A stretch of DNA of 64,000 nt, from contig NZ_CP147920.1 of assembly GCF_039645995.1 (NCBI RefSeq), positions 1,860,001 through 1,924,000 of the forward strand, in the 5' to 3' direction. Below the pieces are notes generated by a model that did not search any database, had not been told where the DNA came from, and was given only the letters and a program-made list of their open reading frames with translations. The stretch's first letter is position 1; the number at the start of each line of letters is the position of its first letter. Shown here one piece after another: positions 10,393 to 14,564 of this stretch. Both the position numbers and the translations under genes were made by a program. The stretch is from Sulfurimonas sp. HSL3-1 (GTDB taxonomy: Bacteria; Campylobacterota; Campylobacteria; Campylobacterales; Sulfurimonadaceae).

Positions 10393-10485
10393 TTCCGCAG
10401 GCCGGGAAGAGCAGCGGTTTTAGGACGCACTTCTCTACTTTTGTGTACACTTGAGGGCATTACAGGCAAGGAAGGATCTTCAATC

Positions 10486-12216
10486 ATGGCATCCAGGTGG
10501 TGGGAGCGCGCCGTCTTTTACCAGGTCTATCCCCGCAGTTTCGCCGACGGTAACGGCGACGGGATCGGCGACCTCCCCGGCATTATCGGTAAACTCGACT
10601 ACCTGCAGTGGCTCGGCGTCGACGCCCTCTGGCTCTCGCCGCACTACCCCTCCCCGCAAATCGACGCCGGTTATGACATTACGGACTTCACGGCGGTCGA
10701 ACCCGCCTACGGGACGATGGCGGACTTCGACCGTCTACTTGAGGCGATCCATGCGCGGGGCATGAGGCTGATCCTCGACCTTGTCCTCAACCACACCTCC
10801 GACCAGCACCCCTGGTTTTTGGAGTCCCGTTCAAACCGGGAGAACCCCAAACGCGACTGGTATGTCTGGCATGACGGCGACGGGGAGGGTCCGCCCAACA
10901 ACTGGCAATCGGAGTTCGGCGGCTCCGCCTGGGAGCACAATGCCCTCACCGGACAGTGGTACTACCATGAGTTTCTCAAAGAACAGCCCGATCTCAACTG
11001 GCGGAATCCCGAGGTCAAAGCCGCGATGTTCGATGTCGCGCGCTTCTGGCTGGACAAAGGGGTAGACGGCTTTCGCCTGGATGCTATAGGCACCCTCTAC
11101 GAAGACCCCGCACTGACCCCGCAGACGAGCCGCTACAGCGCCATTGACGTACTGCGGCACAACTGGCTTCCCAAAGAGACCCGCGACGACCTGCACTACA
11201 TGGACATCGTCCGCGATCTGCTCCGCTACCAGCACGAACAGCCCGAGGTGTTTGCCCTGATGCGCGACTTCCGGGCCCTGATAGACACCTATGACGACCG
11301 TTTTCTCGTCGGCGAAACATCGGACGTCCGCTTTCTGGGAAACGGCAGGGACGCCCTGCACGGCATCTTCAACTTCGATGATGTGGCCCTCCCGGAATTG
11401 ACGCCCGGTGCACTGCGGAAGATCCGAAGTGCCTGGCAAACTTCCGTGCCCGACGGCGGCGCGTTCTGCACGACCCTGAACAACCATGATCAATCCAGGA
11501 TCGCCACCCACTTCGCTGCGGGGGAGCACTCCTTGCAGCCGTGCCGCATCGCACTCGCCGTTACCTTGTTGCTGGGAGGCATCCCTTTCCTCTATTACGG
11601 CGAAGAGATCGGCATGCGCGACTATGCCATCCAAAGCCTCGGCGAGCTGCACGACAGCGTCGGCAGGATCTACCGCGATCTCCGCCTGCAAGAAGGGATC
11701 GGCGATGCGCAGATCCTCATGGAGCTCGGCACCTTCTCCCGGGACCGCTGCCGGACGCCGATGCAGTGGGACCGCTCCCCCAACGCTGGCTTTGCTCCGG
11801 CCGGCGTCAGGCCATGGCTCCCGGTCCATGATAATTACCTTGAGGGCGTCAACGTGGCCGACCAAACTGCCGATCCCGACGCGCTTTTGCCTTTTTACCG
11901 GGAACTGCTCCATCTGCGCCGCACTCATCCTGCGCTCCAGACAGGCAGCTTGCTGGACCTCGACCCCTCAAACGAGGCGCTGCTTGTTTTCATGCGCACT
12001 TCCGGTGAGCAGCGCTGCCTCGTCATCCTCAGCTTCGCCTCCGAACCCCTGCAATGCCACCTCGGATGCCGCGGACGTATCCTGTTCCCAGACATCCAGA
12101 AGCAGACCTGGATCGCGCCGGGACCGTACGACCTCCCCCCCTTAGGCATCCTCATCGTTGCCATCGAAGAGAATCTGCACGACTCGGACCGTTTACCTCT
12201 TTTCGCTATGGTGTAA
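10486..12216 (+). CDS. GH13 family alpha-glucosidase
   Basis: This 576-aa glycoside hydrolase has the four conserved GH13 regions: DLVLNHTSD (about 98), GFRLDAI with nucleophile Asp199, VGETSD with acid/base Glu277, and NNHDQSR with Asp335. The MQWDRSPNAGF stretch near residue 420 is typical of alpha-glucosidases, oligo-1,6-glucosidases and trehalose-hydrolysing relatives. No signal peptide is seen, so it acts in the cytoplasm. AAGGAAGGA lies nine bases before the ATG. It is followed closely by a glucosylglycerol-phosphate synthase-like gene, suggesting turnover of a glucosylated solute; its true substrate is open. Confidence 0.88.
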   Translation: MASRWWERAVFYQVYPRSFADGNGDGIGDLPGIIGKLDYLQWLGVDALWLSPHYPSPQIDAGYDITDFTAVEPAYGTMADFDRLLEAIHARGMRLILDLVLNHTSDQHPWFLESRSNRENPKRDWYVWHDGDGEGPPNNWQSEFGGSAWEHNALTGQWYYHEFLKEQPDLNWRNPEVKAAMFDVARFWLDKGVDGFRLDAIGTLYEDPALTPQTSRYSAIDVLRHNWLPKETRDDLHYMDIVRDLLRYQHEQPEVFALMRDFRALIDTYDDRFLVGETSDVRFLGNGRDALHGIFNFDDVALPELTPGALRKIRSAWQTSVPDGGAFCTTLNNHDQSRIATHFAAGEHSLQPCRIALAVTLLLGGIPFLYYGEEIGMRDYAIQSLGELHDSVGRIYRDLRLQEGIGDAQILMELGTFSRDRCRTPMQWDRSPNAGFAPAGVRPWLPVHDNYLEGVNVADQTADPDALLPFYRELLHLRRTHPALQTGSLLDLDPSNEALLVFMRTSGEQRCLVILSFASEPLQCHLGCRGRILFPDIQKQTWIAPGPYDLPPLGILIVAIEENLHDSDRLPLFAMV

Positions 12217-12308
12217 GGGACACCGTTTGCACTTCTCGCATGGGATTTGCATGTAGATTAACTTTGAATTTTTCACACCACGAAACACCATCACAGGAGG
12301 GTAGTCAC

Positions 12309-14564
12309 ATCTCTATTGTTCACTCAGAAGACATCCACATTCTGGCCACGGATCTCGACGGGACGTTCTTAGAAAGCGTCAACAAAGAAGACGATCCGCT
12401 TTACCGCTATTTGCACGACAATCCGAATATCATTCTTGTTTTCAACTCCGGAAGGAATATCGAACTGATCCTGCCGCTTTTGGACGACATGTCCATTCCG
12501 ACCCCCCACTACATCATCGGCGACGTCGGCGCCTCCGTGCTTGACGGTGCGAACCTCGAACCCGTACAGCCGCTGCAGCACGACATCTCGAAACGGTGGT
12601 ACAAGACCCTCGACTCCATCGCGGACCTGCGCGAGCAGCTTGAGACGCTCGAACGCCAGGACCAGCCCCAGGAGCGCCGGCTCTCCTACTACGTCACGAG
12701 CAGTACCATCCCCAGGGAGCTCGTCGACGAACTCAGCACCCGCGAGTGCGACGTCCTGCACTCCAACGAGATCTACCTCGACATCCTGCCCAAAGGCACC
12801 AGCAAGGGTTCCACCCTTGAAGCGCTGGTCGAACATCTGGGCGTGCCCAAAGAGCGGGTCATCGTCGCCGGAGATACCCTTAACGACCTGAGCATGTACC
12901 AGCACGGCTTCAAAGGCGTCGTGCTGAACAACGCCGAAACCCCGCTCAAAGAGGCGGCCAGCCAGATCGAGCACGCCTACTTTTCCAAGGCTCCGGGGAC
13001 CCACGGCATCCTCGAAGCGATGCACCATTTCGGCATCGCCGAGGCGCAGGAGGTCGTCGAAGCACCCGCCCCCGCTTACGGCAACGCCGACCTCGTCATG
13101 GTCTACCACCGCCTCCCGTTCCAGGAGGTCGAAGAAGCGGGGAAGATCGTCCGCAAAAAACACACCAGTCCCAACGGCATCCTCCCCACCCTACTGGGCT
13201 TCTTTGCCAACGGCGAAAAGGGTTCCTGGGTCGCCTGGTCCAAGTGCGAAAGCCGTACCCCTGAAGATTTCGAGAAACACGTCGAGGTGGACAAAGAGCG
13301 GTACGAACATCTCCGGGTCTGCCGCGTCCCGCTGACGGCGTACGACGTCAAGATCTTCTACGAAGTCTTCTCAAAAGAGGCCTTCTGGCTTCTGCTGCAC
13401 TCCTTCCACGAGAAAGCCGTCTTCAACCACGACCACTGGAAACACTTCTGCGAGGTGAACCGTATCTTCGCGGAAAACACGGCGGCCGAGGCGGCCGAAG
13501 GCGCCGTCGTCTGGATCCACGACTACAACCTCTGGATGGTCCCGGGCTACCTGCGGCAGCTCCGTCCCGACGTCAAGATCGCCTTTTATCACCATACGCC
13601 TTTTCCGTCAGCGGACATCTTCAACATGCTCCCCTGGCGGCGCGACATCATCAACTCGCTCCTGCAGTGCGACTATGTCGGCTTCCATATTCCCCAGTAC
13701 GTCGACAACTTCGTCAATACGGTCCGTTCCAACACCCAGATCGAAGTCAACTCCCGCAAAAACGCCGCGCCGCTGTTCAAAACCTACGGCTGTGCGATCG
13801 GCGTCGATGACTATGCCGACTCTTTCACGACCGAGCTCAATACGGTCCGCCTCGGCGCACACCCCGTCGGCATCAACTGCGGCTACATCGAACAGCTTGC
13901 GGCCAGCGACCATGTGCAGACGCTCTACCACAAGATCCGCGACGAGATCGGCGACAACAAGCTGATCGTCTCCATCGAACGCACGGACTATACCAAGGGG
14001 CCGGTGGACAAGCTCAAAGCCTACGAACACTTCCTGGAGACCCACCCCCAGATGCGCGGCAAAATCAACCTCTTCATGGTCTGTACCCCGCCGGCGAAGG
14101 GGATGGCGATCTACGAAGAGATCACCCAGGATATTGCCTACCACGTCGGCCTCATCAACGGCCGCTTCGGCTCGTACAAATGGACCCCGATCCACTACGT
14201 CAACCGCGTCATTCCCTTTGAAGACGTCATCGCCTACAACTGCGCCGCGGACATCGGCTGGGTCACGCCGCTTCGCGACGGCCTGAACCTCGTCGCCAAA
14301 GAGTACGTCGCCGCTCAGCATGCCATCGGCGGCAATGGTGCGCTGGTGCTCTCCGAATTCGCCGGGGCCGCCGTGGAACTGCACGGCGCTTTCCTCGCCA
14401 ACCCCTACGACAAGGTCGACATGAGCAATACGCTGATGCAGGCCCTCGAAGCACCGGAAAAAGAACGGATCTCACGGTTGCAACGCATGTCGAATATCAT
14501 CCACCGCTACGACGTCAATGCCTGGGGGCAGGACTTCCTTTCCAGCGTAACGGAGAGCGACTAA
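12309..14564 (+). CDS. Bifunctional glucosylglycerol-phosphate phosphatase/synthase (GgpPS-like)
   Basis: The N-terminal third is a HAD-IIB phosphatase (DLDGT at residues 15-19, VAGDTLNDLSM about 183-193). The remainder is a GT20 retaining glycosyltransferase related to trehalose-6-phosphate synthase and GgpS (IHDYNLWMVP, FYHHTPFPS, RTDYTKGP, TPLRDGLNLVAKEYVA). HAD-GT20 fusions in this order are known as GgpPS, which makes the osmolyte glucosylglycerol from ADP-glucose and glycerol-3-phosphate. The start is odd: a strong GGAGGG (12296-12301) is followed seven bases later by ATC, with ATT at 12315 and no ATG, GTG or TTG nearby. The nearest upstream ATG (12240) lacks a ribosome site. A trehalose synthase fusion is the alternative. 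Confidence 0.82.
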   Translation: MSIVHSEDIHILATDLDGTFLESVNKEDDPLYRYLHDNPNIILVFNSGRNIELILPLLDDMSIPTPHYIIGDVGASVLDGANLEPVQPLQHDISKRWYKTLDSIADLREQLETLERQDQPQERRLSYYVTSSTIPRELVDELSTRECDVLHSNEIYLDILPKGTSKGSTLEALVEHLGVPKERVIVAGDTLNDLSMYQHGFKGVVLNNAETPLKEAASQIEHAYFSKAPGTHGILEAMHHFGIAEAQEVVEAPAPAYGNADLVMVYHRLPFQEVEEAGKIVRKKHTSPNGILPTLLGFFANGEKGSWVAWSKCESRTPEDFEKHVEVDKERYEHLRVCRVPLTAYDVKIFYEVFSKEAFWLLLHSFHEKAVFNHDHWKHFCEVNRIFAENTAAEAAEGAVVWIHDYNLWMVPGYLRQLRPDVKIAFYHHTPFPSADIFNMLPWRRDIINSLLQCDYVGFHIPQYVDNFVNTVRSNTQIEVNSRKNAAPLFKTYGCAIGVDDYADSFTTELNTVRLGAHPVGINCGYIEQLAASDHVQTLYHKIRDEIGDNKLIVSIERTDYTKGPVDKLKAYEHFLETHPQMRGKINLFMVCTPPAKGMAIYEEITQDIAYHVGLINGRFGSYKWTPIHYVNRVIPFEDVIAYNCAADIGWVTPLRDGLNLVAKEYVAAQHAIGGNGALVLSEFAGAAVELHGAFLANPYDKVDMSNTLMQALEAPEKERISRLQRMSNIIHRYDVNAWGQDFLSSVTESD

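Follow-up and report, generated by a model that had tools for sequence, protein, structure and literature searches.

To our knowledge, few bacterial genes depend on an AUU, AUC or AUA start codon, and most of these were found singly, by experiment. Non-standard starts that are discriminated against by IF3 are already known from infC, pcnB, sigR and ccpN. The infC gene starts with ATT in E. coli and with ATC in Streptomyces (PMC5472188), and with AUA in S. aureus (PMC13009471). The Streptomyces sigR gene has a GTC start behind a AGGAGGTG Shine-Dalgarno (SD) sequence, and is repressed by IF3; replacing its GTC by a canonical start leads to over-production (Feeney et al. 2017, PMC5472188). In S. 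aureus grown in poor medium, the starts of cvfC1 (AUU) and of ccpN and citZ (both AUA) yield about 10% of what AUG gives; these genes have an extended SD (PMC13009471). A cell-free study found that weak third-base pairs are poorly accepted as IF3 rises (PMC10158994). Across 61,358 ancestral AUG starts, Belinky et al. counted one change to AUU and reported none to AUC (PMC5622118).

The ggpPS gene described here appears to be a biosynthetic-enzyme gene with an AUC start that is conserved across distant bacterial groups and detectable by comparison alone. Neither a published AUC start in ggpPS nor the persistence of an AUC start across two distant groups was found in the open-licence papers searched. 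Like ggpPS, sigR is a stress-response gene with a conserved non-standard start ending in C; its SD is strong. It differs in its codon (GUC) and in encoding a sigma factor, and IF3 control was demonstrated by experiment for sigR, whereas for ggpPS we infer it. The sigR start is also found only within Streptomyces, whereas the ggpPS AUC spans two distant groups. The infC gene shares with ggpPS an AUH start of the kind discriminated by IF3, and in Streptomyces the codon itself, but there it serves self-regulation of IF3, while GgpPS is not a translation factor. In E. coli pcnB (AUU) and in S. aureus cvfC1, ccpN and citZ the start codon holds output down, with a strong SD in the S. aureus cases, but these are other genes with other codons (AUU, AUA). 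The citZ product is a metabolic enzyme like GgpPS, but conservation of the citZ AUA is limited to one strain lineage. Among the enzymes themselves, GgpPS of Marinobacter and other heterotrophs (PMC10873239) has the same domain order and about 51% identity. The Marinobacter-type genes start with ATG (a few with GTG or TTG), and their products lack the lead of about 10 residues found in the AUC clade. The heterotroph gene is reported beside a GG phosphorylase gene (PMC10873239).

The window, meaning the whole 64,000-nucleotide stretch that was analysed (bases 1860001-1924000), comes from a complete 2.5-Mb genome in a single contig. Positions 12309-14564 on its plus strand encode GgpPS, a predicted glucosylglycerol-making enzyme of 751 codons counted from AUC, in which a HAD glucosylglycerol-phosphate phosphatase is fused to a GT20 glucosylglycerol-phosphate synthase. 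The enzyme would convert ADP-glucose and glycerol-3-phosphate to glucosylglycerol, a sugar that protects against salt. Residues 11-243 match PF05116 (HAD phosphatase, E 4.6e-50) and residues 262-747 match PF00982 (GT20, E 3.8e-130). The synthase part scores 650.5 bits against TIGR02398 (glucosylglycerol-phosphate synthase; curated cut-off 569) and falls below the cut-off of TIGR02400, the model for the trehalose enzyme OtsA. Both sequence features of a fused GgpPS are present, an N-terminal HAD phosphatase with motif I (DxDGT) and a C-terminal GT20 domain of the glucosylglycerol-phosphate synthase type. The motif, DLDGT, lies at 12351-12365 (plus strand) and fixes the reading frame, so the start must be upstream of 12351. 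Directly 5' of ggpPS is a GH13 alpha-amylase-family gene (window 10483-12216, plus strand), the end of which is conserved in the genus; of the NCBIfam families shown, there was none whose curated cut-off it reached.

Positions 12293-12320 read ACAGGAGGGTAGTCACATCTCTATTGTT. They include an SD of AGGAGG at 12295-12300 (plus strand), complementary to the 16S 3' end (CACCTCCTTT) over six contiguous matches, followed at a spacing of 8 by the putative start codon ATC at 12309-12311. An SD as good as this precedes about 14% of the standard starts in the genome. The initial annotation had described a GGAGGG followed by ATC and ATT in the correct frame, with no ATG, GTG or TTG between the ribosome site and the HAD motif. 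The sequence bears this out: GGAGGG occupies 12296-12301, both codons are in the 751-codon GgpPS frame, and an in-frame scan found no standard start codon between the ATC and a point beyond DLDGT, the first being TTG at 12411. It had left the choice between AUC and AUU undecided, and here only the AUC can be kept. The ATT at 12315-12317 (plus strand) lies 14 nt from the SD, which is too far, and the Micavibrio-type relatives described below have other codons in its place. The in-frame ATG at 12240-12242 (plus strand) is rejected as a start since it has no SD and is not conserved; the annotation was right that this ATG lacks a ribosome site but overlooked the TTG at 12264, which is also in frame and also without an SD. 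That translation of ggpPS begins at the AUC at 12309 is strongly supported by these features and by the comparisons that follow, and the predicted N terminus would be SIVHSEDIHILATDLDGTF, with the initial Met present or absent.

Within the genus, ggpPS is present in three of eight genomes, all three complete. The 28-nt block at 12293-12320 (plus strand), which runs from ACAGGAGGG through the SD, the spacer and the ATC to codon 4, is identical in the three (0/28 differences). Just 5' of it, 13-30 of 77 intergenic positions differ and there is an indel; 3' of the ATC the changes fall mostly at third codon positions. This pattern bears on a start further upstream, at ATG 12240 or TTG 12264, which would add 15-23 residues and make the SD and ATC incidental. 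The upstream frame is open in the window, but the coding score there is negative, and the upstream sequence drifts while the SD-ATC block stays invariant. In another genome of the genus, G006, whose GgpPS is 96% identical to that of the window, an in-frame TAA stands 45 nt before the ATC and no ATG, GTG or TTG separates the two, so the ATG at 12240 cannot be the general start. Three Micavibrio-type genes (G251, G646 and G672) likewise offer no upstream start, and initiation upstream is very improbable. A start within the HAD domain, where TTG 12411 would be the first standard codon available, is hardly credible. It would give an N-truncated protein with a dead phosphatase, having lost the DLDGT that is conserved in every member along with the residues before it; the third-position changes 3' of the ATC and an SD that points to the ATC also speak against it.

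Relatives outside the genus were collected by a scan of genome contigs, followed by a search of the order to which one hit, L019, belongs. This hit, on a Micavibrio-labelled MAG contig, encodes a GgpPS of 73% identity; a Marinobacter (L020) encodes one of 51%. Three more Micavibrio-type ggpPS genes came from the search of the order. The four Micavibrio-type genes, which are mostly from draft genomes, share 65-73% amino-acid identity with the genus, and in each an ATC follows the aligned SD core at a distance of 5-9 nt (AAGGAGGGGGAGCG-ATC, AAGAGGTACAGACCA-ATC, AAGGAGAGAGCT-ATC and CAGGAGAAGGTAGCT-ATC). The SD is AGGAGG in the genus, AAGGAGG in G251 and AAGGAG in G688, and moderate in G672 (AGGAG) and G646 (GAGGT). 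In G646 an in-frame TAA lies 18 nt before the ATC, with only AAG AGG TAC AGA CCA between them. In four of the seven genes (G006, G251, G646, G672) there is no ATG, GTG or TTG from the in-frame upstream stop to the HAD motif; G688 has an in-frame GTG and TTG upstream, both without SD sites. The seven genes also bear on ribosome entry in another frame followed by a programmed frameshift near the start. Out-of-frame starts do occur, for example TTG 12316 in the window and an upstream ATG in G646, but across the seven genes they are neither conserved nor alike in placing, and the other frames are closed by stops at differing distances, making this route most unlikely.

The ATC is thus found at the SD-directed position in 7/7 genes, which form one clade with support of 100/100 (L001-L003, L019, L038, L039 and L040). 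An ATG at the same position in relatives would have pointed to a sequence error, and all clade relatives have ATC instead. With three independent complete genomes and four others in agreement, sequencing error is excluded. The distance from the ATC to the HAD aspartate is 14 or 15 codons and the residues after the ATC differ between genes, which indicates that the feature being kept is the codon after the SD and not a peptide.

How much weight this conservation carries depends on how far the genes have diverged. At shared residues, 28-46% of codons are identical between lineages (28-39% between the genus and the Micavibrio-type genes), and synonymous codons are near-saturated between the genus and the Micavibrio-type genes. 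The G251 gene is AT-rich, and ATC makes up 16% of its Ile codons. Ile is shared by all five lineages at 30 columns, and one of these has ATC throughout. If the lineages are taken as independent, although by shared ancestry they are one clade, the chance of ATC in all five is about 0.012 at one Ile column (the product of the per-gene ATC shares among Ile codons) and about 1e-8 at one unspecified codon position (from ATC shares among all codons). Since the seven genes are one clade, the ATC arose once and was kept, and represents one inherited state, not several gains. A single origin would also suffice for a tolerated relic, an AUC that is the start but has no regulatory role, having drifted in once and persisted by inertia. 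A change from ATC to ATG takes one base, yet the ATC has stayed while synonymous sites approached saturation, and the counts in PMC5622118 imply that AUU and AUC starts are strongly disfavoured in general. A relic is unlikely, and the conserved AUC looks like a selected brake on GgpPS production, by analogy with the known cases, rather than a sequencing error.

The ggpPS genes of the genus nest among the Micavibrio-type genes with support of 97/99. This suggests that ggpPS was transferred between distant bacterial groups; the direction, taken from rooting with a long-branched outgroup, is tentative. The neighbours of ggpPS differ among the Micavibrio-type genomes and from those in the window, indicating that the gene has moved between contexts together with its start. 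In one Micavibrio-type locus (L107, 4650-7456), ggpPS is preceded by two genes that we take, from reading their sequences, to be a glycerol-3-phosphate dehydrogenase and a glycerol kinase, fitting a supply of glycerol-3-phosphate. Outside the AUC clade, 34 more distant relatives start with ATG, a few with GTG or TTG. In 30 Marinobacter-family genes the HAD domain follows these codons directly; within the window's order, another family has ATG in its four readable members. Viral contigs held no ggpPS relative, plasmids held only relatives below 60% identity (those of Rhodobacterales with HAD and ggpS as separate genes), and wide sampling of two classes yielded distant relatives only.

The translation apparatus of the genome appears ordinary. 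It includes a single initiator tRNA, whose C1-A72 and GGG/CCC anticodon stem are the usual ones, and three identical copies of tRNA-Ile(GAU). No initiator tRNA with a GAU anticodon is present in the genome, and a special initiator reading AUC is ruled out by the single normal one. The anti-SD is also ordinary. Against shuffled sequence the leader shows no excess of structure (z between -0.2 and 1.2), so masking of the SD by RNA structure does not exceed chance. No Rfam element was found at the leader and no promoter or terminator match in 12000-12400. For infC, the apparent start in this genome is a TTG behind GAGG, which gives no sign of an AUU feedback on IF3 of the E. coli type.

The reading that we prefer, with a probability of roughly 0.85, is that translation starts at the AUC at 12309 by mismatch decoding, that IF3 limits it to a low output, and that selection has kept the AUC, including through the apparent transfer. 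The ordinary initiator fMet-tRNA (anticodon CAU) would decode AUC despite a C-C mismatch at the third position of the codon, and GgpPS would then carry fMet at its N terminus. The good SD and unstructured leader would keep the 30S subunit in position for a time sufficient for the mismatch to be accepted. Proofreading by IF3 would discard most AUC complexes, with the SD partly compensating, and GgpPS output would be a fraction of the AUG rate, rising when IF3 is limiting or initiation fidelity is lower. Low output and sensitivity to IF3 are what infC, pcnB and Streptomyces sigR would lead one to expect by analogy. Selection would have kept AUC over AUG in the clade, including during the apparent transfer between the Micavibrio-type lineage and the genus.

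A more specific role as a salt sensor, in which hyperosmotic ions or an altered IF3 or ribosome state relax start choice and turn ggpPS on, is unlikely. The gene is part of a pathway that responds to salt (PMC10873239), and the efficiency of the S. aureus ccpN AUA varies with growth medium (PMC13009471), but a derepression of the Streptomyces sigR GTC start by stress could not be demonstrated (PMC5472188). It is similarly unlikely, though conceivable, that the AUC serves as a translational salt switch that can be transferred along with ggpPS from one phylum to another, with the ionic state or the IF3-to-ribosome ratio directly setting osmolyte synthesis through the start codon.

With ggpPS, the idea that the identity of a start codon can be retained for regulation becomes accessible to testing. 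The AUC start bears on the expression of GgpPS for glucosylglycerol production, and gene callers limited to ATG, GTG and TTG would misplace the start of this gene.

A home-made survey of the 2,084 predicted genes of the genome looked for sites where a non-standard start beats every standard start, and ggpPS ranked third. The lineage may be more tolerant of AUH starts than usual; such tolerance alone cannot explain ggpPS because its AUC is common to distant hosts. The first-ranked site belongs to a metX-like gene of the alpha/beta hydrolase type at 1676094 (G000:C1, minus strand; L213), which from its sequence we take to be a homoserine O-acetyltransferase. The first codons of its frame are ATC-ATA, which overlap the TAG that ends the preceding gene (ATCATAG), and no ATG, GTG or TTG lies near the start. 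This arrangement is common to six genomes of the genus, two of them without a nearby standard start, and the more distant G002 has a metX-like gene with ATG. The metX-like gene is likely a second conserved AUA (or AUC) start, predicted to work by stop-start coupling. The second-ranked site, which like the first lies outside the window, is an ATT after AAGGAG at 923662 (G000:C1, minus strand), apparently opening a 329-codon frame that matched no Pfam family; the best of its standard starts, a TTG, comes 34 codons further on, and a homologue is found in three other genomes of the genus.
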